Positions 13,202 to 43,606 of a stretch of 64,000 nt of DNA are shown here, in pieces. The DNA comes from Clostridia bacterium (GTDB taxonomy: Bacteria; Bacillota; Clostridia; Christensenellales; UMGS416): positions 62,001 to 126,000 of the forward strand of contig JAFGUF010000039.1 of the NCBI GenBank assembly GCA_016938675.1, given 5' to 3'. How positions within the stretch are numbered: the first letter of the stretch is position 1; the number at the start of each line of letters is the position of its first letter. The position numbers were made by a program, and so were the translations under genes. Below the pieces are notes generated by a model that saw nothing but the letters and a program-made list of their open reading frames with translations, did no database searches and had not been told where the DNA came from.

Positions 13202-13232
13202 ATTAATTCCCTTTATTCTAAATTATTTTAAA

Positions 13233-13248
13233 GGCGCCTTACGGCGCC
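13233..13248 (-). terminator. Terminator after the anchored surface protein gene
   Basis: GGCGCC / GGCGCC with a 4-base loop, extended on both sides by A-T pairs, followed on the minus strand by TTTAAAATAATTT. It lies 10 bases after the stop of the 13258-14451 gene. Confidence 0.8.
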
Positions 13249-13257
13249 TAAAGTATT

Positions 13258-14451
13258 TTAGTTTACGCTGTTTCTTTTTTTCTTAATAATGATCAAAGTA
13301 ACTAATACTGCAATCAAAACGAGCAGCACAGTCGCCAGTAGTAAAGCTGAATAGTTAACTTCTCTTTCGGTTTCTATCTGTGCCGACGTTGGTGTCGGAG
13401 TTGGCGGCGGCGTAAGTGTCGGCGTTGGAGTTGGCTCCGGTGTAGGTGTTGCGAACATCTCTATCAATGCTTCTACATCCATGTTTCCTTCAGATCCTAC
13501 TATACTTTCAGCTGAGACAATATAGTTCCCCGGCGCGAATACCTTCACCGATATGTTTCCGTTTCCGTCGGTATCAGCTGAATTTACATATTCCAGTAAA
13601 CTTATGTTTTTGTATTCTCGATATACATAGATTAAATCGCCTTTAGGTGCTACAAAAGGCTCAATAAGGTAATCCACTATATAGAAAAACTGAGAAGTAT
13701 TATTAACCGTGAATACCAGCATGTCATCCGGTCTTTCAGCGGGAATCAACGTGATGCCCATGTTTACATCATCCATATTCTCGGGTACTACACCAACCTT
13801 GCTTCCGTCTAATACGCATTTAAATGAGCCGTAATCAATAGTAAGAATTACGCTCATGTCCTGTATAGTCTTGAAGGCCTCTGCCGGCACATTTATTTCT
13901 CTTTCTGATTCCGGGTCCATCTCAACCGTTATGCTTCCGCCGTTCTCGACTCTCTTAATTTCACGTATTGCAAGCTCCCACGGTGTTGGCGGAGGCGTCG
14001 GCGTAGGAACAGGAGTTGGCGTTGGTTCAGGAGGCGCAATAACTGTAACCGTTTTTGACCCCGAAATAGTGAACTTACTTACTGTTGATGTATTCGGGTC
14101 AAATGATGAGCCCTGGCCGGATACTGTTATTGTTCCGGTTGAGCCGACAGCGGCGGATGATGGTATGCTCACTGTGATGGTAGCAGTCGCAGTAAGGCTA
14201 GAATTAAGGCCGGAAGATGAATCCTTGCTCCATGTTGCCGAATGGCTGCCCAGCACTCCGCCTGTGGATGCGGTTCCCATTATAGAAGACGCATTCTCAG
14301 ACACTGTAATAGTATATGTATATGAGCTTCCAGCGTACACCTGGCTGTTACCGGAAATCGATACCCCTGCAAATGCCGTTCCTGTAATCAGAGTCGAAAC
14401 TACTGCACCAAATAAAAGAGTCAGCAGCAGCTTCCCTTTCAATTTTAACAT
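13258..14451 (-). CDS. Secreted, membrane-anchored surface protein with beta-sandwich domains
   Basis: 397 residues with a signal peptide (about 1-28), an Ig- or cohesin-like all-beta region (30-138), a Pro-Thr linker (139-157), a second beta-rich region (158-330) beginning with IKRVENGGSITVEM, a second Pro-Thr linker (335-356), and one membrane helix (about 368-390) followed by KKKR. This topology puts both beta domains outside the cell on a stalk. I do not recognise either domain with confidence; the pattern VSIPSSAAVGSTGTITVSG recurs in clostridial surface proteins. It starts 51 bases after the 1837-residue dockerin-like protein on the same strand, with GAGAGGAAAA before the ATG, so the two are probably co-transcribed and this could be the anchor or receptor. 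Binding is inferred from context only. Confidence 0.8.
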   Translation of the reverse strand: MLKLKGKLLLTLLFGAVVSTLITGTAFAGVSISGNSQVYAGSSYTYTITVSENASSIMGTASTGGVLGSHSATWSKDSSSGLNSSLTATATITVSIPSSAAVGSTGTITVSGQGSSFDPNTSTVSKFTISGSKTVTVIAPPEPTPTPVPTPTPPPTPWELAIREIKRVENGGSITVEMDPESEREINVPAEAFKTIQDMSVILTIDYGSFKCVLDGSKVGVVPENMDDVNMGITLIPAERPDDMLVFTVNNTSQFFYIVDYLIEPFVAPKGDLIYVYREYKNISLLEYVNSADTDGNGNISVKVFAPGNYIVSAESIVGSEGNMDVEALIEMFATPTPEPTPTPTLTPPPTPTPTSAQIETEREVNYSALLLATVLLVLIAVLVTLIIIKKKRNSVN

Positions 14452-14502: not shown

Positions 14503-14928
14503 TTAATTATATAATGGCATTACATTCAGAATATGCAGTCTGAGCAGCGTATAATCGACAACATCAATTACAGAATCGTCATTTATATCGGCAACCAACA
14601 GCCTTATTCCATCAAGTTGTGCTACATTCAGAATATGAAGCCTGATCAAAGTATAATCAATTATATCCAGTATGCCGTCTGAGTGCACTTCACCTTCAAT
14701 TAGTATAATTAGCTCATCTACGACTGATTCGTCAACTATCAGCTGAACGTAGTAACCTGTAGATACCACCATATCTCCTGAGATTTCCTGCATAGTCTCA
14801 TTAAATATATGTACTTCACCGCCAGAGTTTTCGATAGCATCCATTATGTTCTGAACTGTCGTTTCAATCGGGATATCCTCAAGGAAACCACCCTCTCTGT
14901 TTACCGTATAGATTGACGATGTTATAAG
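14503..14928 (-). other. X-module plus dockerin-like tail of the caspase-like protein
   Basis: Residues about 1697-1837. The X-module-like part runs from SSIYTVNREGGF to the ILIEGE strand. Two dockerin-like repeats follow, each ending in DYTL(I/L)RLHILNV. The second has a full calcium-loop pattern (DINDDSVIDVVD); the first is degenerate at loop positions 1 and 3 (EVHSDGILDIID). The same arrangement ends the subtilisin at 40568-43606. Confidence 0.75.
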
Positions 14929-17900
14929 CTCATCTGCAATGTTTATCGCGCATTGCGCGCTATAGCCGCCATCTTCCGTTGTAACAGTTATTATAGCGCT
15001 GCCAATTGCATTCGCTGTAACAAAACCTGATGCATCGACTGAGGCTATTGTATCATTACTTGATGCAAATGTCACATTTTTATTCCTTGCATCATCCGGC
15101 AGAACTGTAGCTATCAAAGCCAGTGTGTCGCCTGGAATCATGCTATATTTATCATATTGGAGTTCTACGCTCTCCACAGGCCTATCAACCTTTACCAAGC
15201 AGTTATCAGTAAATCCTCCATCCGTTGTAGTAACAGTTATTGTAGTTGTTCCCAGTGAGTGAGTCCATACTACGCCAATGGCATCTACTGTAGCGATATC
15301 TTCATCACTAGATGAGTATGTGACTGCTTGATTTGTCGCATTCGTTGGAGTTATGACGGGAGTAAATGTATAATTATCGCCTATATTGATTTGTACTTCC
15401 TCCGGCAACAAATCAACCGACTCGACATAATACCCTGAGGTTACTGTGCAAGTGTCTTCATATCCGCCGTCTTCAGTGGTCACTGTAATTGTCGCTGTTC
15501 CTAATGATACGGCTGTTACAAGTCCTGTTGAATCCACTGTGGCTACTGTTTCATCGCTTGTTGTGTAGGTGACAGTTTTGTTTGTGGCGTTTGCTGGTGT
15601 AATCTGAGGTAATAACTGAAGGCTTCTTCCTATGTCAATATGTGCATTCTCCTGAATATTCACCGAAGTTACATAAACATCAGAGCTTAAATTGCCTGCA
15701 TATAATATATGGTCTGAATTTATCGGATAAACCTGTACCTGTTGATATTCATTTATTAAGTCTGCAGTGTAGTGATATATTTCATTCCATGTTATAAAGT
15801 TATCGCCGTTGCTGTCTGCCCATAATTCTAAAAATGGAGTGCTGTCATAAAGGCCGAATCCGTCATGTAATGTTATATTGAAATACCCAAGTATATAATA
15901 TATCTGACTATTCATTACAGTCGGAGTCAGGTTTTCCTCTGCGAATAGCGAACCAGTTATGTCAAAAGCATATTCATAAGAAAGCTGTGATCCAGAGCTG
16001 GCAGTCAAAACATAATATCCAGTTTCAGCCAAACTCTTTACAGCCATTCCTGTTCCAGTTTCAGAGCCGCTGAAAGCTGAAATTACATAGTCATTAAAGC
16101 TTTGCTCTGTCTCCTCTATGCTAAATGATTTGCTTGTCATCTCCCTATCTATAAAGCCACCTGAATAGCAAGCATCAATAATTACTTCTTTCACGCCAGT
16201 ATGAAGTGATAATTTGCCTTCAAGGTCATATACAGAAATTGGCACAAAATCTTTGCCAAATATATATCCCCCATTTGCACCGTGTCCAGAGTATGCAAAC
16301 AAAAGTGTGGCGTCCTCTGGAAGGTAAGACGCTATTGCCTCTACTCTGCTCAAAAGCTCATCAGAAGTATAATCCATGTATTTAAACACTGTATACCCCG
16401 CATACTCAAGCACCGCTTTCATCGCTGTCATGTCGTTTACAGGTCCATTTAGATCGTTATCATCTCCTTCATAATCCGCCACGCCGAAAAGTATCGCTAC
16501 CTTTTGAGAATTCTGTGAAATTACTGTAATATTACAAGTGTCTGTATATCCGCCATCTACGGTGGTTGCTGTAATTACACATGTTCCTTCAGAAACACCT
16601 GATACCACACCGTCTGTGACAGTTGCAACTGATGAATTACTTGTCGACCAGTGAATATCTTTATTAGTTACATTAATGGGCGAGATTTCAGGAGTTAATG
16701 TGACCGTTTCGCTCTCCAGAACATATGCCAGCTCTTTATCCAATTTTATGCCTGTTACAAGAACATCATTAGGACTTTCTTCAGGGTTAAGTGTGAAATA
16801 ATATTCGCCTGCTGATTTTTTTTGCAAATATATAAGCTGATTATTATTAAAGAAAATTTGAACAAAGTTGTCATTTGCAGTAAAAATGTCCTGTACCGCT
16901 CTCATATTATAATCATAAGAAAGCAATACATTCTCATTTGCTGTATAGAAAGCATTGTTATCTAAATCAAAACATATTGAAGTAAATTCATTAATTGTAC
17001 CGTCTAGCAGAACATCATCTTCAAATATGTCAGAGCACGTATATATACCACCGCTTCCGGTAAACATGTATTCCCCGTCAGGAGACATTTTGTGCTCTCC
17101 AAGAGCATAAGAACTCTTATAATTCTCTGAAGTAATAGCTCCATCCTTTATAGTATAAGATGTCAAACAGTTATACAGTTTATTATATTTTTCATTATAG
17201 TCCCATTTTATATTGTAGTAAATTTTATTAAGAGTGCTTATCTTTTCTCCATTGTTTGAATTATATGATTCGACAATAGAAAGTTGACCTGTACCTGAGG
17301 TAATATAAGCATTTCTTGAATTATCTACCGCAATGTCGTATGGATCTAATTCTACATTGAAACAGCTTTCGCCTGCAAACGTAGCTGTATCAATAATTAC
17401 TATAGTCCCGCTTTCATTTCCAGAAGACATAGTATCGTGAGGCTTGTGCATAAGTGTTAAATATATTTTTCCGTTTTTAATATCAAAACGTTCAGCTTGA
17501 TATATAAATTCCATATATATTACTTGCCCAGTATTTACATCAACTCTATATAACAATTTCGAGTCTTTTTTTGTTAGATAAATTACATCTCTTTCAGGAT
17601 CAGCACCACTATCAAGAGGAACAAATCCAAGTTCCTCAAATGCATTTATTGAAGTAGTATAAACTCCAATGACAGGCAAATCTGATACAGTAATAGTACA
17701 TACATCTGTGTAATTTCCATCTAATGTTGTAACTGTAATGTCACATTCTCCCAAAGCATGCGCTGTTATTAACCCATTGTCTACACTTGCAATTGCAGGA
17801 TTACTAGTTGTCCATAATACATTTTTATTTGTTGCATTGTCCGGTGTAACAGTCGCAACTAAATTTTCTTCACCTCCGGGAATCATTTTTGAATCGTTCT

Positions 17901-20016
17901 TATTCAAATATATCCCCTCTGCTCCAACATTTGAGGATGATTCTATTGGATTTGTAGTAAAGAAATATTGATTTAAATTATTCTTCTGAAGACATAGTAC
18001 TTCATCATTCTTATAAAAGATATCAACAAAATCATTTTCGGAATCAAATTGTTCTATTACCTCCAACGTATTGTAATTGTATGTTAATAATGTATTAGCG
18101 TTTGATGTATAGAACTCATTGTTGGAATCAAAACATATTGAATCATACCCTTCTATTTGATCAACAAAAACTAAATCACTCTCTTCATCAGACGCGCAAA
18201 GGAAAATTGTACCTGCTCCATTGAAAAGAAACTGTCCTTCGGGTGAAATATTAATGTAATCATTCATAGGATATTCTCCATGATATGGAGAATTGTAGAA
18301 ATTTGTAATAATTCCATTTAATACTTCAACCACTTCAATATCACGAGGCGTGCCATTATCTGCACACATATATAACTTATTGTAATCATCATGAAACACT
18401 AATTCACTGTAAAATCTGGGAGCAACTGTTGCGTTAAGATTAGTGCCAGTTATTGAATTATAACAATCAATCTTATTGTCATAACTGCCCGTATCTGGAG
18501 AAAGATATACATAACCTTGATTATCTACTGCTATATCATACGGATTTACTGTAACATCAAAAATATTATCTGTAGCAAATAAAGCAGTATCAACAACGGC
18601 TACTCTGCCTGGCGTGACTTGTCCATAAACATAGTCCTGACGCAGTGCAATATATAGTTTCCCATTTTTAACTTCCATGTGTGTCGGCTTGTATTCAAAA
18701 GTTTTATATGTGATATTACCGTTATTTAAGTCAACTCTATAAATACTATATCCATCTACAGCAGTGCAATACACAACATTTCTGTCAGGATCAACTGCAG
18801 CTCTGTTGGGTATAAAACCAAGATTACTAAAAGCTCTACCCGCAGCATTCTCTGTTCTAGTTATATTTAAAATATAGTTATTATATGTAGTTCCATCCTC
18901 AGCTGTGCAGGTAATTGTGAATGTGTTTATTCCTGCATATAGTATTTTAGTACCTAAGTCCCCTGATATTGACATTGACGAATCCTGCACTTGGGCGGCA
19001 ATTTCTATATGATCTGTAGTAAAATCAACCGTAATATCATATGAAAAAACATCGCTAGAAAAGCCGGAAATTGCACTACTGTCTATTGATATATCTGACA
19101 AAATAGCATCAGACGAAGGAGTTCTTGTTACTGCAATTGTATACGTACTAGTTGTAACCCCATCCTCTGCAGTACATATTATACTATATTCATTAATTCC
19201 GACAGCCAATTCATTAGAACCTAAATCACCTGATAATTGCGCATAACTGCTACTTGTTATTGCTATAAACTCAACCACATCTATATCATTTGGCAATTGA
19301 ATTTCATAGTTAAAAACATCACCAGAAAAGTTTTGTATAGTTTCACCATTTATTTTCAAATCATCTATAAACGAATTTGTCGAAGCTTCAGCTCTTGATA
19401 CGTTTAGTAAATAGTTTAGCTCAGTTGCGCCATCTTCTGCGATACATGTAATAATAAATTCATTCAAACCAACTACTAAACTTTGACTACCTGTGTCTCC
19501 TGTGATTTGCGCATTATTATCAGAGGTTGCTGCCCCTATATCAATACTGTCCACTGAATAAGATACTTCTAAATTATAGGTATAAACAGAACTTGAAAAA
19601 CCTTGTATAGTGGAATTATCTATTGACAGGTCAAATAATGAAGCATCACTGGAAGCCTCATTCCTAGTTATATTTACAACATATTCTCTTTGACTGGTAG
19701 TATCCTCAGACACAACAGTAATTGTAAAACTATTTAATCCTACAATTAAGCTTTGATTTCCCGTATCACCGGAGATTTCTGCAAGCGGCTCAGTGGCAGC
19801 AGCCGAAATGTCAATTTCAGTTGTCGACCAATCCACATCAATATTGTACTCCAAAACATCCGGACTAAATCCCGCGACGCTTACACCATCAATAGTTATC
19901 CCACTCAAGCTCGCATCATCCGCAGCCGCATAAGCAATACGAGAAAATGAAAAAATAAGAGTTGTCAGCACCAAAAGAGTAAAAACAATAATTACTCGCC
20001 TATCAACATGCTTCAT
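14503..20016 (-). CDS. Giant secreted caspase-like protease with cadherin-like, propeller, Big2 and X-dockerin-like modules
   Basis: 1837 residues. A signal peptide (about 1-30) is followed by four cadherin-like beta-sandwich repeats (35-117, 123-208, 212-298, 302-388), a first propeller-like region (about 395-690), a Big2 domain (700-778), a second propeller-like region homologous to the first (about 792-1085), another Big2 (1087-1165), and a caspase-like (C14) domain (1170-1360) with catalytic His1245 in YSGHG and Cys1283 in DACYSG. An EF-hand-type loop (DSNGDNFITWNE, 1401-1412), three more Big2 domains (1448-1695), an X-module-like domain and a two-repeat dockerin-like tail (about 1778-1837) complete it. 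Metacaspase-type proteases often need Ca2+. Substrate and partner are unknown. The next gene encodes a membrane-anchored surface protein. Confidence 0.9.
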   Translation of the reverse strand: MKHVDRRVIIVFTLLVLTTLIFSFSRIAYAAADDASLSGITIDGVSVAGFSPDVLEYNIDVDWSTTEIDISAAATEPLAEISGDTGNQSLIVGLNSFTITVVSEDTTSQREYVVNITRNEASSDASLFDLSIDNSTIQGFSSSVYTYNLEVSYSVDSIDIGAATSDNNAQITGDTGSQSLVVGLNEFIITCIAEDGATELNYLLNVSRAEASTNSFIDDLKINGETIQNFSGDVFNYEIQLPNDIDVVEFIAITSSSYAQLSGDLGSNELAVGINEYSIICTAEDGVTTSTYTIAVTRTPSSDAILSDISIDSSAISGFSSDVFSYDITVDFTTDHIEIAAQVQDSSMSISGDLGTKILYAGINTFTITCTAEDGTTYNNYILNITRTENAAGRAFSNLGFIPNRAAVDPDRNVVYCTAVDGYSIYRVDLNNGNITYKTFEYKPTHMEVKNGKLYIALRQDYVYGQVTPGRVAVVDTALFATDNIFDVTVNPYDIAVDNQGYVYLSPDTGSYDNKIDCYNSITGTNLNATVAPRFYSELVFHDDYNKLYMCADNGTPRDIEVVEVLNGIITNFYNSPYHGEYPMNDYINISPEGQFLFNGAGTIFLCASDEESDLVFVDQIEGYDSICFDSNNEFYTSNANTLLTYNYNTLEVIEQFDSENDFVDIFYKNDEVLCLQKNNLNQYFFTTNPIESSSNVGAEGIYLNKNDSKMIPGGEENLVATVTPDNATNKNVLWTTSNPAIASVDNGLITAHALGECDITVTTLDGNYTDVCTITVSDLPVIGVYTTSINAFEELGFVPLDSGADPERDVIYLTKKDSKLLYRVDVNTGQVIYMEFIYQAERFDIKNGKIYLTLMHKPHDTMSSGNESGTIVIIDTATFAGESCFNVELDPYDIAVDNSRNAYITSGTGQLSIVESYNSNNGEKISTLNKIYYNIKWDYNEKYNKLYNCLTSYTIKDGAITSENYKSSYALGEHKMSPDGEYMFTGSGGIYTCSDIFEDDVLLDGTINEFTSICFDLDNNAFYTANENVLLSYDYNMRAVQDIFTANDNFVQIFFNNNQLIYLQKKSAGEYYFTLNPEESPNDVLVTGIKLDKELAYVLESETVTLTPEISPINVTNKDIHWSTSNSSVATVTDGVVSGVSEGTCVITATTVDGGYTDTCNITVISQNSQKVAILFGVADYEGDDNDLNGPVNDMTAMKAVLEYAGYTVFKYMDYTSDELLSRVEAIASYLPEDATLLFAYSGHGANGGYIFGKDFVPISVYDLEGKLSLHTGVKEVIIDACYSGGFIDREMTSKSFSIEETEQSFNDYVISAFSGSETGTGMAVKSLAETGYYVLTASSGSQLSYEYAFDITGSLFAEENLTPTVMNSQIYYILGYFNITLHDGFGLYDSTPFLELWADSNGDNFITWNEIYHYTADLINEYQQVQVYPINSDHILYAGNLSSDVYVTSVNIQENAHIDIGRSLQLLPQITPANATNKTVTYTTSDETVATVDSTGLVTAVSLGTATITVTTEDGGYEDTCTVTSGYYVESVDLLPEEVQINIGDNYTFTPVITPTNATNQAVTYSSSDEDIATVDAIGVVWTHSLGTTTITVTTTDGGFTDNCLVKVDRPVESVELQYDKYSMIPGDTLALIATVLPDDARNKNVTFASSNDTIASVDASGFVTANAIGSAIITVTTEDGGYSAQCAINIADELITSSIYTVNREGGFLEDIPIETTVQNIMDAIENSGGEVHIFNETMQEISGDMVVSTGYYVQLIVDESVVDELIILIEGEVHSDGILDIIDYTLIRLHILNVAQLDGIRLLVADINDDSVIDVVDYTLLRLHILNVMPLYN
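18853..19914 (-). repeat. Four tandem cadherin-like domains (coding repeat)
   Basis: Four units of about 85-90 residues, each with the pattern (S/D)A(S/I)L..(L/I)(S/T)I(D/N)...I.GFS..V..Y.(I/L).V, then SGD(T/L)G...L.(V/A)G(L/I)N.(F/Y)(T/I/S)I.C.AEDG. This is the usual cadherin-like beta-sandwich found in bacterial surface proteins. Confidence 0.75.
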
Positions 20017-20083: not shown

Positions 20084-20111
20084 ATTATACCATATTTAAC
20101 CTTAAATTCAA
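20084..20111 (-). promoter_or_regulatory. Promoter of the caspase-like protein gene
   Basis: Minus strand: TTGAAT (20106-20111), 16-base spacer, TATAAT (20084-20089) with TGG directly before it (extended -10). The -10 sits inside the palindrome TGGTATTATACCA (20080-20092). About 67 bases of AT-rich leader follow before the ATG. Confidence 0.55.
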
Positions 20112-21069: not shown

Positions 21070-22014
21070 TTAAATCTTACTTTCTCCTCCGGTCACAAAC
21101 GCCTTACCATTAAGCTTATGATACTCTCTAAGTATACTTTCGATTTTTTCCAGCTTCTCAGCATTTTGCTTTTTAACGTTTCTAAATTCCCACTTTCTGC
21201 CCAGCCTGTCGTATTTGGACTCGCACAGGTTATTAAAGGCTAAAAGTTCCCATCTTTCCACAGCAGCGCTATTTTGCGAAATAAACTCCGCTATATCCCG
21301 TACGTTCTCTTCAGTGTCTGTAATGCCGGGAATAAGCGGCGTCCTGACCCATATTTTAAAGTCCTGCTTTTCCTGCTGAAGCCTGCATAGCTTTTCGAAG
21401 TTCTCAATAATCAATTCGCTTCCATGTGCAGTATTTTCCTTGTGCAGGTTGCTGTCAAAAATCTTAAGATCATATAGAAACAATGATGCTGCTTCTGCAA
21501 TCTTTTCAATGTTTTCGAATTTCACCTGTCCGCAGGTATCCACAGCCGTGTGAACTCCGCTTTCTTTTAATTTTATAAGCAGTTCATATGCGAAATCCAC
21601 CTGTGCCAGCACTTCTCCTCCCGAAAGGGTAATTCCTCCCTGCTGCCCGAAGTATGCTTTGTCCTTTATCAGCTCATCGTATAGTTCCTGCGCTGTCCAC
21701 GTGCCGCCCTTTGCTTCTAATGCGTTGGTCGGGCAATTCACAGTGCACTCCATGCACTTTTCACATAAGGATTCATCTATAGAAATATGATCATCCACAA
21801 AGGATATTGCCTTATTGCTGCAGGATACTATGCATGTACCGCATCTTATGCACTTCATTTCAAACCATTCGTGCTCTTTAGCGAAATTTATACTTTCCGG
21901 ATTATGGCACCATCTGCATTGCAGGGTGCATCCCTTGAAAAAGACTGTAGTCCGAAGGCCCGGCCCATCCTCAGTGGACATTCTCTGAATATTTAGTATT
22001 GTTCCTTCTTTCAT
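21070..22014 (-). CDS. Glycyl radical enzyme activating enzyme (radical SAM)
   Basis: This activase uses SAM and a [4Fe-4S] cluster to abstract hydrogen from the C-terminal glycine of its partner enzyme. In the longer frame from 22050 the radical SAM motif is C41/C45/C48 (KGCTLQCRWC), followed by two ferredoxin-like clusters, C67-C70-C73-C77 and C96-C99-C102-C106. These are typical of activases for decarboxylase- or lyase-type glycyl radical enzymes and absent from PflA. TLSGGEVLAQ is the SAM-contact motif. I place the start at the ATG at 22014 (MKEGTILNIQ), just after the partner's stop, because the residues before it are atypical. Confidence 0.93.
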   Translation of the reverse strand: MKEGTILNIQRMSTEDGPGLRTTVFFKGCTLQCRWCHNPESINFAKEHEWFEMKCIRCGTCIVSCSNKAISFVDDHISIDESLCEKCMECTVNCPTNALEAKGGTWTAQELYDELIKDKAYFGQQGGITLSGGEVLAQVDFAYELLIKLKESGVHTAVDTCGQVKFENIEKIAEAASLFLYDLKIFDSNLHKENTAHGSELIIENFEKLCRLQQEKQDFKIWVRTPLIPGITDTEENVRDIAEFISQNSAAVERWELLAFNNLCESKYDRLGRKWEFRNVKKQNAEKLEKIESILREYHKLNGKAFVTGGESKI

Positions 22015-22021
22015 TTTGCTC

Positions 22022-24520
22022 TTACATCCCCTGATGCTCTTGCCGTGCAATTATCTCATCCTGCAGGGCTCTTCCTATGGATGCGAAGTAGGCATTGTAG
22101 CCCGTTACCCTGACTAATAGATGTTTATAATTATCCGGGTGCTTCTGCGCGTCCTTAAGCATATTGCTGTCTAGGATATTTATCTGCAGAGCTGTTCCGC
22201 CGTTTTCAATGTATCCTTTAAGGTACGCTTTAAACTTTTCTTTAGATTCATTGTTTTTAAGCAAAGAAGCCGAGAATGTAATCGTATGGCTTGCTCCGTT
22301 AGGCAGAGAATTCTTGTAGTGCTCGAAATCACCCGTTTCCGCTTTTCCGCCCAAAGCTATGCCCACTGAATTCGCATTGGCTGTAGGCCCGTTTATGTCC
22401 GCTCCGTTGGATGGGCATATGGCGTTGGATAAAAATTGTCCCTGCTTTCTTCCGTCTGCGCTGGCTGCCATTACAAAGCCATCTCCAACCCAGTAGTTCC
22501 AGCTAAGCATACCCGGCCGGAATTGCCTGCCCGTACTCTTTGTTGTATGTTTCCAAGTTTCATCCGTCCATATATCCATTACCTTTTGTGCCAGTTCATC
22601 AGCTTCTTTGTCATCCCTTCCATACTTTGGTGCTTTGTTTTTGGCTACTGCCTGCAGGTAATCGCTGTCTTCCCAGTTGTTTTTGAGTATATCTACAAGC
22701 TGCTCTAATGTGCACATCTTCTTATCGTAAACAAGGTACTTAATTGCCAGCAGCGAATCCACCGTAGTAGCGTATGTGACAGCTTCAATTGTGGTCAGGT
22801 TTATCTCAGCACCGCCTTGTGTTATGTCCTTTTTGTTCTGCGCACAGCCTCTTATTAGTGTGGAAAGATATGGCGTCGGAACAAACTCCGCTCTCAGTGA
22901 TTCTGTCATTTCATATACTTCAGCTATTTTATCAACTATATATTCCGTTTGCTTTTTATACGCTTCAAAGAATTTTTCCCACGTATTCAGCTCACTGAAA
23001 CTTCCGGTCTTTGGTCCGTCAGTTTTAATTTTTTCTTCTTTTCCTGTCATAGGGTCAGTAAATGAAAGTAAATCTTTGCCGTTGTTCATTGCAAGCTCAA
23101 CTGCTTTCAAAAGATTAAGGTTGTTATCTACCGTGCCTGATCTGTCATTTCCCACCATTGTATTCTCAAGACATCCCACTGAAGCGTAATCATACACATT
23201 ATCTTCATTTATCATGTGCTCAAGGTTTGCTTCCTTGGCTTCACGCAGCATTCCCGCCATTGAACGCTCATCAAAGTTCAGTAAAAACGGTGCGCCCTGC
23301 GATGAAAGAACCATATCGACAACCTTATCAAGAAGCTTCTCTGGTGAGTTCCTGTGCAGGCGTACATTAGGCTTTGGTTCTAATATCGGGCTCATGTCGT
23401 CTATCATATCAAGAAGGACGTATGTCAGCTCATTTGTCATGTCCTTGCCGCCTTTGCCCATTCCGGATAGATTGAAAAGCTGGCCGAAACCTGCTGTAAT
23501 CCCCTGATTCGCCCCTACCCTTATCTGTGCATCATACACAGTATTGCAATGAAACCAGAAGCTGCCCAGAATATCTTTGGCAAATTCCTCTGTCATTCCG
23601 TTTTCTTTTGATGTTTTGTAATATGGATATAAAATCTGATCCAGTCTGCCGAATGAAACGCCTGGGCCGGGATAGTTTTCATCGGACATTATTAGCATAT
23701 GAGCCATCCACAGGGATTGTATCGCCTGATAAAAATCCTCAGCCGGATGCCAAGGCACCACTTTTAGATTGTTTGCTATTTTTATCAGCTCTTCTTTCCT
23801 CTGCTTGTCTGATTCTGTTTCTGCCATTGCCCTGCACTTGTCTTCATATCTTTTTGCCAGCTTTCTTGGCATATTGGCAGCTATCATCATGGCCTTTATT
23901 TGTGCGCCTTCTCTGCCTTTCTTTTCTTTATCAGTCAGAGATTCAAAGACTTCTTCAAGTTCCTTGTATATTCCCTTGAACCCGATCTTTAATATGCGTT
24001 CATAGTCAGCGATTATGTGCCCGCTGGTTGCGCCTGAGTTGCCGTATCCATGGTCATGGAACCACTTCATAGCATGAGCCGCGCCGTTTTTTCCGTTCAG
24101 CAGTTTGTCTCGCTTTTTCTGCTCCTTTTTTGTAAGGCACATTGATGTAAAGGTATTGAAGTTAGCTCCTGCCAGCAAATCCCTGTCTATTATCTCGCAG
24201 GGCATATATTCATTCATCACTTTGTCTAAAAATTGCGCCTTGCGCACAACCAAAGGCTGCTTCCAGAAATCATCATCCAGTTTAACAACCTTTGCAGCCT
24301 GCTTTGTAGATGCCGTAAATGTCTTGTGGAATGCATACGTTTCGGGGACTATATAATACGGAGTCTCATCATATAGCATGTCCCAGTCCGTCCCTGTCGT
24401 GAAACAACGGAATTCATTGTTCCATTCTCTTTCTGTTCCCTGAAAAAAGTAATCTCTCAGATACTTTACCCTCGGAGATAAATTACCCGGTATTTTCAGT
24501 TTTGCTGCGAATTCACTCAT
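22022..24520 (-). CDS. Glycyl radical enzyme, substrate unassigned (decarboxylase/lyase class)
   Basis: An 832-residue glycyl radical enzyme. The radical glycine is Gly807 in RVTGYNAYF, and the thiyl cysteine is Cys450 in SVGCLENT, followed by Glu452. A single Cys followed by x-Glu excludes pyruvate formate-lyase, which has adjacent cysteines. The sequence after the Cys (NDRSGTVDNNLNL) differs from the GCVEP motif of choline, diol and isethionate lyases. Arylacetate decarboxylases (p-hydroxyphenylacetate, phenylacetate, indoleacetate) also have Cys-x-Glu and are a plausible group, but I cannot assign the substrate. The start has GGAGGTATT upstream and overlaps the gntR stop by four bases. Strictly anaerobic metabolism is implied. 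Confidence 0.92.
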   Translation of the reverse strand: MSEFAAKLKIPGNLSPRVKYLRDYFFQGTEREWNNEFRCFTTGTDWDMLYDETPYYIVPETYAFHKTFTASTKQAAKVVKLDDDFWKQPLVVRKAQFLDKVMNEYMPCEIIDRDLLAGANFNTFTSMCLTKKEQKKRDKLLNGKNGAAHAMKWFHDHGYGNSGATSGHIIADYERILKIGFKGIYKELEEVFESLTDKEKKGREGAQIKAMMIAANMPRKLAKRYEDKCRAMAETESDKQRKEELIKIANNLKVVPWHPAEDFYQAIQSLWMAHMLIMSDENYPGPGVSFGRLDQILYPYYKTSKENGMTEEFAKDILGSFWFHCNTVYDAQIRVGANQGITAGFGQLFNLSGMGKGGKDMTNELTYVLLDMIDDMSPILEPKPNVRLHRNSPEKLLDKVVDMVLSSQGAPFLLNFDERSMAGMLREAKEANLEHMINEDNVYDYASVGCLENTMVGNDRSGTVDNNLNLLKAVELAMNNGKDLLSFTDPMTGKEEKIKTDGPKTGSFSELNTWEKFFEAYKKQTEYIVDKIAEVYEMTESLRAEFVPTPYLSTLIRGCAQNKKDITQGGAEINLTTIEAVTYATTVDSLLAIKYLVYDKKMCTLEQLVDILKNNWEDSDYLQAVAKNKAPKYGRDDKEADELAQKVMDIWTDETWKHTTKSTGRQFRPGMLSWNYWVGDGFVMAASADGRKQGQFLSNAICPSNGADINGPTANANSVGIALGGKAETGDFEHYKNSLPNGASHTITFSASLLKNNESKEKFKAYLKGYIENGGTALQINILDSNMLKDAQKHPDNYKHLLVRVTGYNAYFASIGRALQDEIIARQEHQGM

Positions 24521-40567: not shown

Positions 40568-40996
40568 TCAGTAATACAAATCCATGACCTTCAGAATATG
40601 AAGCCTAACAAGAGTATAGTCAATTATGTCAATCACTCCGTCGTCATTTACGTCTGCAGCCTCCAGCTCTATACCCGCTAAATATGATACTTTCAGTATG
40701 TGCAGCCTTATTAATGTATAGTCAATTATATCTATGATGGTGTCCGGGCTGCAGTCGCCTTCTATAACGATGCGTACCTCATCCAAAGTTTGTCCTGCAA
40801 TTATCAGACGGATATAGTACCCTGTTGAAACATTACCCTCGGTTACTTCTTCCAAAGCGTAATTATACACATGCACTTCACCTGCTAGATGATCCACCGA
40901 ATCAATAATCTCAAGTACAGATGTGTCAATTGCGACGTCTTCATAATATCCGCCTTTTCGGTTAACTGTATAAATGCTGGATGTAATAATCTCTTC
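40568..40996 (-). other. X-module plus dockerin-like tail of the subtilisin
   Basis: Residues about 871-1012. The order is ITSSIYTVNR, a GEVH(V/I)(Y/F)N strand, VSTGYY, IEGD, then two DIIDYTL(I/V)RLHILKV repeats, matching the tail of the caspase-like protein segment by segment. Both calcium loops are intact here. Confidence 0.78.
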
Positions 40997-43606
40997 AACG
41001 ACATGTATCGTGCACGCATCAGTAAGCGCACCGTCTAGCGACTCTGCAGTAATAACGGCGTCCCCCAGGCTGTGCGATGTTACAATCCCTGTTGCGTCCA
41101 CTGTCGCTATCGTTTCATTACTGGAATAATAGATTACATCCTTATATGTGGCGTTTGAAGGCAAAACTTCAGCCTCCAGCTCCAAAGTTTCTCCGACAAC
41201 CATATTGTATGATTCAATATCAAGCTGTACCTCTTCCACATGCTGCACCACAGTAACCAAAGTAGTGTCTGTAAATCCACCGTCTTCCGTAGTCACGGTG
41301 ATTTCCGTTGTTCCTGCAGCGTGCCCCCATACCACCCCGATTGCGTCCACTGTTGCAATTGTTTCATCACTTGATTCATAGGTGACATTTTTATTGGTGG
41401 CATCAACTGGTAAAACCTCAGCTGTCAGCGAGCTGTATCCGTCAATATCTATATATATGGTATCAGGTGAAAGCACAACTGATTCAGCGAAATGCCCCGA
41501 TGTGATTACGCAGGTATCTGTAAAAGAGCCTTCTTCGGTAACTACAGTTATAGTTGCTCTGCCCAGCGAAACCCCGGTTACCAGCCCTGAAGCATCAACT
41601 GAAGCTATCAGCTCATTATCTGATGAATAGGTTACAGTTTTATTGGTGGCATTTGCTGGCGCGAATACAGGGCTGAGCTGCAAGGTGCCGCCTATTTCCA
41701 CCTGGCCGTCGTCAATTGAGACGCCCGTTAAAGGATACCCTATCTGCAGAGTGCATGTATCCGTATACCCACCCTCTTGCGTAGTAACTGTTATTGTTGC
41801 TTCTCCCATTGATTTGCCTGTAACAAGCCCTGATGCATCAACTTCTGCTATTGAATCATCTGATGAAGTATATGTGACATCTTTATTTGTCGCATCCGAC
41901 GGAATAAATTGAGCGGTGAGCTGCAGAGTTTCGCCTACATCAATGTGGCCGCTTTCAGGCGCAAGGTCAACACCTTCAACCCTTGAATCAACTACATATA
42001 CTATGCAAGTATCTGTATACCCGCCGTCTTCTGTTTCTGCGGTTATAATTGCAGTGCCGTTATTTGTGCTGCCTGCCGTTACCAGTCCTGCGGAGTCAAC
42101 CGTCGCTACCGACTCATCATTTGATGAGTATATTACATTTTTATTCGCAGCAACATCCGGGAAAACCTCCGCTGTGAGCTGCAAAGTTTCATTATGATCA
42201 AGCACTGCATCCTCCGGAGTCAGGCTTATTCCGTTCACTGTAAGCAGGCTCTCCACTGCCGCAGCTATATTCAGCCTGCCTGCACCGTATTCATCGCCGC
42301 CTATTGTTTTGCTTTTTGCTGTATCGTCCGCAGAATTGCAAAGTATATCCTTAACTTCCTCTGGAGTAAGTGTATCATCCAGGCTTAATAAAAGCGCCGC
42401 CGCTCCCGCCACTATAGGCGAGGCAAACGAAGTTCCGCTTCCGCTTGAGTATCCACCGCCTATCGCAGTTGATTTCATATATACCCCGGGGGCTGTTATG
42501 CTCTTTACTGTGCCGAAGTTACTGTTAGTCCATAATAAATCATCATCTATTGTAGACGCCATTACCCCTATTACATATGGTGAATCAGAAGGATAATGAG
42601 GCTCACTGCTGTTATCATTGCCACATGCGGCCACAAGGACGATCCCGCTTTCGTATGCTAATTGCAGCTTTGCCTCCAATGCCGGGTCATCATCGCCCAA
42701 TGCCCCGAACGACATGTTTATTACGTCAACATCCTGCTGGATAAGGTAGTCTATTGCTTCGCCAATATCAATTGTAGTTGCTGATGTGGTGGTTGAAAAC
42801 GCATCCACTACTATTAGCTTGCATGAGGGCGCTATTCCTGCGGTGCCCATGCTATTGTTGGCAACAGCAGCAATAAACCCGCATACCATTGTTCCATGGC
42901 CGTTTGTGTCATCGCCACTGCCATCCTCATCTGCGGTGTCGTAGTGCGCCAGTATATTTGCCTGAAGGTCAGGATGGTCTATGTCCACTCCCGTGTCAAT
43001 TACGCCGATTACAACATCGCTGTCTCCAAATCCGTAATCCCATGCGGAAAACACATCAACTGTATAAAAAAACCAGCCATTATTCACTGTGTTCGTGTTT
43101 GGAACTGAGTCATTCACAGTTGCATCTATCGTGTAAATATAGTTTGGCTGAATGTATTTAACGCCCGGCTGATTAGCGGCCTCATCAATATATTCATCTA
43201 TGGTTATGCCTTCTTGAATCTCAACAACAAGAGCATTCTTGTTTCGCTTGACAGTCTTTCCCTTGCTTAAATAGCTTTCTTTCTTTTCTTTTGTCTTTTC
43301 ACTAGTACCATCACCAGATGAGGAGCTATCATCGGTAAAGCCCTCAATTTCTTCCGATTTCTCGGTTATATCTGTTTCCCAGCTGGATTCCTCCATGATT
43401 TCTTCCGATTCTTGCGCCAGCAGACTGTCATCATAAACTATAATAACCTGATTAGGCACGCACTCCCTGCCTTTATAATATGACGGATTGTCATCATTTC
43501 CATTTTTTTCGTCCGTTGCGTACACAAATGCATTGCCCGCCTGTGCTGCAGCGGCAGCCAGAAAAGCAATCACAAGAAATATCAGAATTAGTTTGGTCTT
43601 TTTCAT
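40568..43606 (-). CDS. Secreted subtilisin-like protease with five Big2 domains and X-dockerin-like tail
   Basis: 1012 residues: a signal peptide (about 1-29), an acidic Ser-rich propeptide (to about 165), and an S8 catalytic domain (about 170-450) with Asp204 (GVIDTGVDIDH), His237 (NGHGTMV), oxyanion Asn330 and Ser393 (GTSFASP). Five Big2 domains follow (about 456-870), then an X-module-like domain (from SSIYTVNRKGGY) and two dockerin-like repeats with full calcium-loop patterns (DCSPDTIIDIID, DVNDDGVIDIID). There is no sortase signal or membrane anchor, so it is released or held by a dockerin partner. The tail is closely similar to that of the caspase-like protein at 14503-20016. It appears monocistronic. 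Confidence 0.93.
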   Translation of the reverse strand: MKKTKLILIFLVIAFLAAAAAQAGNAFVYATDEKNGNDDNPSYYKGRECVPNQVIIVYDDSLLAQESEEIMEESSWETDITEKSEEIEGFTDDSSSSGDGTSEKTKEKKESYLSKGKTVKRNKNALVVEIQEGITIDEYIDEAANQPGVKYIQPNYIYTIDATVNDSVPNTNTVNNGWFFYTVDVFSAWDYGFGDSDVVIGVIDTGVDIDHPDLQANILAHYDTADEDGSGDDTNGHGTMVCGFIAAVANNSMGTAGIAPSCKLIVVDAFSTTTSATTIDIGEAIDYLIQQDVDVINMSFGALGDDDPALEAKLQLAYESGIVLVAACGNDNSSEPHYPSDSPYVIGVMASTIDDDLLWTNSNFGTVKSITAPGVYMKSTAIGGGYSSGSGTSFASPIVAGAAALLLSLDDTLTPEEVKDILCNSADDTAKSKTIGGDEYGAGRLNIAAAVESLLTVNGISLTPEDAVLDHNETLQLTAEVFPDVAANKNVIYSSNDESVATVDSAGLVTAGSTNNGTAIITAETEDGGYTDTCIVYVVDSRVEGVDLAPESGHIDVGETLQLTAQFIPSDATNKDVTYTSSDDSIAEVDASGLVTGKSMGEATITVTTQEGGYTDTCTLQIGYPLTGVSIDDGQVEIGGTLQLSPVFAPANATNKTVTYSSDNELIASVDASGLVTGVSLGRATITVVTEEGSFTDTCVITSGHFAESVVLSPDTIYIDIDGYSSLTAEVLPVDATNKNVTYESSDETIATVDAIGVVWGHAAGTTEITVTTEDGGFTDTTLVTVVQHVEEVQLDIESYNMVVGETLELEAEVLPSNATYKDVIYYSSNETIATVDATGIVTSHSLGDAVITAESLDGALTDACTIHVVEEIITSSIYTVNRKGGYYEDVAIDTSVLEIIDSVDHLAGEVHVYNYALEEVTEGNVSTGYYIRLIIAGQTLDEVRIVIEGDCSPDTIIDIIDYTLIRLHILKVSYLAGIELEAADVNDDGVIDIIDYTLVRLHILKVMDLYY

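Follow-up and report, generated by a model that had tools for sequence, protein, structure and literature searches.

We propose, with a probability of about 0.68, that the gene at 14503..20016 on the (−) strand encodes a secreted metacaspase-type protease docked by an X-dockerin on a diverged, membrane-anchored cohesin, itself the product of the neighboring gene. The window, that is, the whole 64,000-nucleotide stretch of Clostridia DNA analyzed here, carries both genes.

Domain architecture and the C14 domain

The protease gene is one unbroken ORF of 1837 residues with the following features.

14503..20016 (−): caspase-dockerin gene (ORF and Pfam architecture)
20084..20111 (−): promoter-like site, TTGAAT-16-TATAAT with extended TG (consensus match only)
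19924..20016 (−): signal peptide, approximately residues 1–31 (..SRIAYA/AADD..), judged from sequence
18856..19917 (−): four cadherin-like β-sandwich domains, approximately residues 34–387 (PF12733, 4 stretches, 3.3e-29)
17926..18834 (−): propeller-like region 1, residues 395–697 (37% identical to region 2, 6e-65)
17683..17919 (−): Big_2 domain 1, approximately residues 700–778 (PF02368; borders are estimates)
16762..17643 (−): propeller-like region 2, residues 792–1085 (homology to region 1)
16513..16755 (−): Big_2 domain 2, approximately residues 1088–1168 (PF02368; borders are estimates)
15697..16503 (−): C14 (metacaspase-type) protease domain, residues 1172–1440 (PF00656, 4.9e-17; 6w8s, 5.4e-15 with profile A6)
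16282..16284 (−): predicted catalytic His1245 in YSGHG (alignments and direct position check)
16168..16170 (−): predicted catalytic Cys1283 in IIDACYSGG, preceded by Asp1281 of D-x-C (alignments and direct position check)
15781..15816 (−): EF-hand-type loop D1401–E1412, DSNGDNFITWNE (end residues invariant in 5/5 aligned proteins)
14932..15672 (−): Big_2 domains 3–5, approximately residues 1449–1695 (PF02368)
14719..14919 (−): X-module, approximately residues 1700–1766 (aligns with the corresponding region in ten further dockerin proteins)
14518..14706 (−): type I dockerin, residues 1771–1833, loop 1 degenerate and loop 2 canonical (Pfam, PDB matches, and alignments)

The domain order is signal peptide, four cadherin-like domains, propeller-like region 1, Big_2, propeller-like region 2, Big_2, C14, three Big_2 domains, X-module, and dockerin. 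Pfam bears out the four cadherin-like repeats and the Big2 domains (five stretches, 1.5e-72) of an initial annotation that was made from the sequence alone. That annotation also described two homologous propeller-like regions; the homology stands, extending over approximately 300 residues and pointing to a clear duplication, whereas a propeller fold is weakly suggested by an SBBP match (0.015).

Residues 1172–1358 match PF00656 (Peptidase_C14) with 62.8 bits against a curated cut-off of 21.4. A five-member profile of the domain (A6), searched against the PDB, finds Arabidopsis metacaspase-4 (6w8s), in which the SGHG and D-x-C motifs align with His1245 and Cys1283. These are the residues first named as an intact dyad, and their numbering is exact; PDB entry 6w8r has alanine at the position of the catalytic cysteine. 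The His–Cys dyad is invariant in an alignment of five distant, diverged secreted C14 proteins. By sequence, the domain is assigned to peptidase family C14, metacaspase-type and C14B-like, and is thus related to the metacaspases of plants and yeast; the dyad together with the homology to metacaspases supports the protease identity put forward initially. The structure prediction for the domain, made from four sequences, had a mean pLDDT of 48.5 and was too poor for dyad geometry.

Metacaspases and orthocaspases of C14B have the dyad and both motifs in common with this domain, and a basic P1 preference and calcium dependence would be expected (PMC4357240, PMC3501461); metacaspases are in general activated by calcium and take Arg as well as Lys (PMC4357240). 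By analogy, the predicted C14 enzyme would most likely cleave after Arg or Lys, with calcium. Calcium dependence is plausible from the EF-type loop, the dockerin loop, and the metacaspase precedent (PMC4357240). The EF-hand-type loop had been noted before; it is situated at the C14 domain's C-terminal end, and all five aligned proteins keep the Asp that opens it and the Glu that closes it. As these ends are invariant in such distant proteins, the loop is part of the enzyme of this caspase subfamily and not a separate module. The C14 domain might instead be a non-catalytic binding or regulatory domain, given that pseudo-orthocaspases exist (PMC6426788) and that adhesion-type domains dominate the protein. 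This is very unlikely, as both His and Cys sit in conserved motifs, the aspartate of D-x-C included, and the dyad has been retained through the divergence of the five proteins.

The genome encodes one C14 protein, the 1837-residue protein described here, and a search of genome contigs found no named relatives of its caspase domain. Relatives were sought in genomes of the order (297), class (391), and phylum (398), with overlaps between the samples kept; an X-dockerin tail was present on 0 of 33 other C14 ORFs, most of them viewed with only 1.5 kb of flanking sequence. A role in anti-phage defense was considered and rejected: the PADLOC "caspase" and "subtilase" profiles match no more than the enzyme domains, and a secreted multidomain protein is at odds with such a role.

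The X-dockerin tail

Dockerin_1 matches residues 1777–1829 with 25.5 bits in the genome scan (cut-off 22.9) and with 18.1 bits, under the same cut-off, in the whole-protein scan. In the PDB, the tail is matched, among others, by dockerin 4dh2 and by 8x39/8x3a (2.8e-5), two chains deposited as "serine protease". By these matches and the alignments, the tail is a type I dockerin with two repeats, of which loop 2 is canonical (DINDDSVIDVVD) and loop 1 degenerate (EVHSDGILDIID).

Three proteins of the genome exceed the dockerin cut-off (caspase, subtilisin, and SpoIID), and all three carry an X-dockerin tail. The SpoIID protein is encoded on a different contig, and the subtilisin lies within the window.

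40568..43606 (−): second dockerin protein, subtilisin (S8) with five Big_2 domains and X-dockerin (84/154 tail residues identical with those of the caspase)

The three tails are 52–60% identical to one another. Identity peaks in two DYTLxRLHIL-type helices, a pattern that suggests a single receptor for all three. The X-module and two-repeat dockerin-like end of the initial annotation therefore holds in its main part (Dockerin_1 match, an X-module common to the two other proteins, canonical loop 2), with the qualification that loop 1 is degenerate. That degenerate loop would suit a tail acting as a structural cap or self-association module that does not bind cohesin, leaving the protein a free secreted enzyme or adhesin; in the double dockerin of an S8 protease, the modules pack on each other and the function of the second is ambiguous (review PMC12484212). 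With loop 2 canonical, both helices kept, and all three tails of the genome in agreement there, we consider a cap function quite unlikely.

The initial annotation held that dockerins normally carry plant-polysaccharide enzymes. This is too narrow, since dockerin-borne proteases have been described (PMC12484212, PMC3573020) and none of the three dockerin proteins of this genome (0/3) is a plant-polysaccharide glycoside hydrolase. The genome search for cohesins that it proposed returned none over the Pfam cut-off anywhere in the genome (95.98% complete, 45 contigs). Since cellulosomes are known to include proteases with dockerins (PMC12484212), the protein could be an accessory of a cellulosome or of another plant-polysaccharide-degrading complex. 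With only three dockerin proteins, no such hydrolase among them, and no cohesin over cut-off, this is extremely improbable, and cellulosome membership was rejected.

The neighboring anchor and its homologs

The next gene downstream, on the same strand and 52 bp past the protease stop, encodes a membrane anchor. A ribosome-binding site of its own precedes it, and the 52-bp gap contains no called terminator.

13258..14451 (−): 397-aa membrane anchor gene, candidate diverged cohesin receptor (ORF, neighborhood, and homology searches)
14032..14364 (−): N-terminal β-sandwich (cohesin-like), residues 30–140 (AlphaFold2 pLDDT approximately 88; VIA matches; homology chain)
13477..13974 (−): second domain, approximately residues 160–325 (module shared with further surface proteins of clostridia)
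13285..13353 (−): C-terminal membrane helix, followed by KKKRNSVN (from sequence)
13232..13249 (−): palindromic hairpin 3′ of the anchor gene, called terminator-like on the + strand (may mark where the gene pair ends)

The anchor comprises a signal peptide, the β-sandwich, a proline linker, the second domain, a C-terminal membrane helix, and a basic tail, and its C-terminus lacks an LPXTG motif. No second copy of the N-domain was found in the genome, which has one such anchor only. Matches in three further genomes (G473, G458, G362) were rejected as anchor relatives, being confined to the second domain, a common surface-protein module.

The weakest link of our reading is the cohesin assignment of this anchor, which has no direct cohesin profile match and a non-diagnostic fold. 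Pfam Cohesin does not match it, and a profile of the N-domains of the window anchor and of its homologs in genomes G027 and G002 (A1) matched no cohesin in the PDB. Comparison of the diverged with the canonical anchor set by hhalign gave 1.8%, and a canonical cohesin profile built from neighbors of dockerin genes reached the window anchor with E = 3.7. The anchor model resembles the cohesins 2jh2 (Z 9.0) and 4uyp (Z 8.8) at 19% identity, tied with unrelated β-sandwiches; the modeled fold is compatible with a cohesin and is not diagnostic of one.

Indirect support for common descent with cohesins comes from a chain of homology. The N-domain of the window anchor is linked to that of G027 at 3e-13 and to that of G002 at 1.3e-3, the weak link of the chain; G002 is linked to G361 at 5e-27, and G361 scores 2.7e-4 (21.6 bits, under the cut-off of 24.1) against Pfam Cohesin. 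The G002 domain is also found, at 2e-8, by a profile of the neighbors' own cohesins. Over their full length, the anchors of G002 (4.1e-22) and G027 (2.4e-35) are clearly homologous to the window anchor. Each stands directly downstream of dockerin genes: subtilisin-SpoIID-dockerin in G002 (contig JAGLOK010000145.1), and SpoIID-dockerin and NlpC/P60-dockerin in G027 (contig JABGQS010000021.1).

The arrangement recurs in a dockerin survey of the 297 genomes of the order. Twenty contexts were picked by dockerin score, mostly from few-dockerin genomes, and in seven a gene for a signal peptide, cohesin, and membrane helix lies immediately downstream of the dockerin gene (in one, L073, the contig ends before the helix). 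G265 makes an eighth case, with the gene of a cohesin-membrane protein just upstream instead. Four of the seven downstream pairs are from genomes of family f31 and the others from f16, f21, and f5, so that not all are independent. By a hand estimate that assumes 2000 genes with four cohesin genes, the chance of seven adjacent pairs in 20 is near 1e-14, and that for four families among approximately fourteen is near 1e-8. The protein at this position in other Clostridia is usually recognizable as a cohesin. One neighbor, that of G003, exceeds the Pfam Cohesin cut-off; Pfam Cohesin matches five of the nine neighbor domains of set A2, and the best PDB matches of the A2 profile are cohesins. Cargo of the paired dockerin genes is SpoIID, Amidase_3, SH3-type, or unidentified. 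Further pairs, in G361 and G453, were found via the anchor and are not independent of it.

The strongest additional evidence for a cohesin-type anchor is the co-variation of dockerin and anchor sequences. Over 12 neighboring pairs, the two distance matrices correlate with r = 0.82 (permutation p = 0.0002). Shared species history could lie behind part of this correlation. It does not explain the matching in G027, which has two pairs of different subtype: a window-like dockerin (ITDYTLLRLHILG) with a window-like anchor, and a different dockerin with a canonical cohesin anchor.

An alternative is that the X-dockerin does dock the protease, but on another, unrecognized receptor, the neighbor being a surface protein of other function. 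No direct profile recognizes the neighbor's N-domain as a cohesin, and, the genome being possibly incomplete, the gene for a canonical cohesin could have been missed. Set against this are the conserved place of the homologs beside dockerin genes, the homology chain to cohesins, and the co-variation of subtypes, and we regard another receptor as unlikely, if still worth weighing. The window anchor is probably a diverged, membrane-anchored receptor of cohesin type. Of the tethering proposed initially, to the cell surface or to a scaffold, the surface is favored by such a receptor in the next gene, and a polymeric scaffold is not, there being no cohesin over cut-off and a single anchor.

Proposed mechanism and relation to known systems

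In the proposed mechanism, the C14 enzyme would be exported and fold with calcium, and its X-dockerin would plug into the diverged cohesin domain of the anchor, keeping the protease at the membrane. Three Big_2 domains and the X-module would form a spacer between protease and docking joint, and the cadherin-like and propeller-like domains an outward arm, probably presenting substrates or partners to the C14 domain, which would cleave from mid-protein. The single anchor is probably also the receptor for the subtilisin and the SpoIID-type peptidoglycan enzyme; with one tail shared by three cargoes and one anchor seen, the three would compete for, or share, this receptor. A role in surface-protein processing or envelope remodeling may be envisaged, and would fit the cargo of the relatives.

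Dockerin-proteases, single membrane cohesins, and non-cellulosomal cohesin–dockerin systems are already known. In Ruminococcus flavefaciens, RflaF_05439 likewise brings cysteine-peptidase-type cargo on an X-dockerin to a single surface-anchored cohesin, ScaE (PMC3573020). However, its domains are NlpC/P60 (papain-like) and not C14, and ScaE, unlike the window anchor, is sortase-anchored and within a full cellulosome. The S8 protease of Clostridium thermocellum with the double dockerin dDoc_0689, probably the protein behind the PDB matches 8x39/8x3a, is also a secreted protease with a related dockerin, thought to be docked to a cell-bound cohesin (ScaD); in contrast to the caspase protein, it is a serine protease with two dockerins from a cellulosome producer (review PMC12484212). 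Single-cohesin proteins of "scaffoldin-containing" microbes share with the window anchor one cohesin, one C-terminal membrane helix, and a presumably non-cellulolytic host, but are recognized by standard cohesin models; in the passages considered, neither peptidoglycan enzymes nor a caspase appear as their gene partners (PMC11557425). The planctosome of freshwater Planctomycetes (PMC6461901) and the mucinolysome of Limousia (PMC12997984) are likewise non-cellulosomal cohesin–dockerin systems with peptidases. They differ in using metallopeptidases or mucin enzymes within larger assemblies, and no caspase-type domain is mentioned for them.

C14 cargo on a dockerin was found nowhere else in the genomes and literature searched. 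The titles and abstracts searched contained no natural protein combining a caspase-type protease with a dockerin, and survey text on prokaryotic caspase homologs listed no dockerin or cadherin-like partner domains. In the literature and genome-sample searches, no counterexample emerged to the initial statement of an undescribed domain order. The protein and its anchor are best read as a minimal non-cellulosomal system in which the caspase is one cargo, the cargo elsewhere being peptidoglycan enzymes and proteases.

More broadly, and tentatively, with the chances a little below even, the pair may belong to a cellulose-independent two-gene display system, widespread among Clostridia, of a single membrane cohesin with peptidoglycan enzymes or proteases. 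In this lineage a metacaspase would have been recruited as cargo, and the cohesin would have diverged past profile recognition together with its dockerins, yielding a surface-tethered, calcium-gated processing enzyme of caspase type. The recurrence, in few-dockerin Clostridia, of a membrane cohesin paired with dockerin-borne SpoIID, amidase, NlpC/P60, SH3, or protease suggests that docking serves cell-envelope enzymes. Pfam searches would undercount such systems if cohesins of this kind escape standard models, and the adjacency of the genes makes docking directly testable with two recombinant proteins. Discussion of bacterial caspase homologs has mostly concerned proteins inside the cell or proteins of cell death. 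Tethering a caspase-type protease outside the cell by a cohesin–dockerin joint would, if true, put both modules to a different use.

Dockerin proteins and other genes of the window genome

The dockerin proteins encoded in this genome apart from the caspase-like protease are as follows.

window 40568-43606 (-): subtilisin with five Big_2 domains, ending in the X-dockerin tail that the caspase protein also carries
L032:8325-11210 (genome contig G000:C26): SpoIID domain, Big_2 and X-dockerin, the third dockerin protein

The subtilisin-dockerin gene lies approximately 20 kb from the caspase gene, and its VIDTGVD, NGHGT and SGTSFASP motifs are all intact. No cohesin-type gene is present beside the SpoIID-dockerin gene at its locus. 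Further genes were noted.

window 21070-24520 (-): PFL-like glycyl radical enzyme and its radical SAM activase
L031:17117-18595 (genome contig G000:C3): secreted protein with a single membrane helix and CARDB/DUF11-like domains

A GntR-like regulator gene lies upstream of the enzyme and activase genes. The cohesin signal in the L031 protein is very weak (E 0.8).

A match to the propeller-like regions

Part of a plasmid-borne trypsin-like peptidase of Anoxybacillus amylolyticus (NZ_CP015439.1) resembles the propeller-like region of the caspase protein (window 17926-18834 and 16762-17643, -), with 27.6% identity (9e-21).

Fused cargo and dockerin-anchor pairs in comparison genomes

In genome G002, a single chain combines cargo types that the window genome encodes as separate proteins.

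L027:5194-9732 (contig shared with L113): subtilisin, SpoIID, SH3, five Big_2 domains and dockerin in one protein

A membrane anchor gene follows the fusion gene after approximately 10 bp. At locus L076 (G053), a SpoIID-dockerin gene adjoins the start of a subtilisin-like gene in divergent orientation, and a gene nearby encodes a Big_2 protein in which a weak dockerin lies internally. An SH3-type dockerin protein followed by a cohesin-membrane protein was observed at L070, L071, L072, L074 and L077, an arrangement spanning two families; at L070, the SH3 and dockerin parts are split over two frames. Genome G027 carries two distinct dockerin-anchor pairs (L026 and L080) of differing subtypes, and their presence inside one genome is a natural test of specificity.
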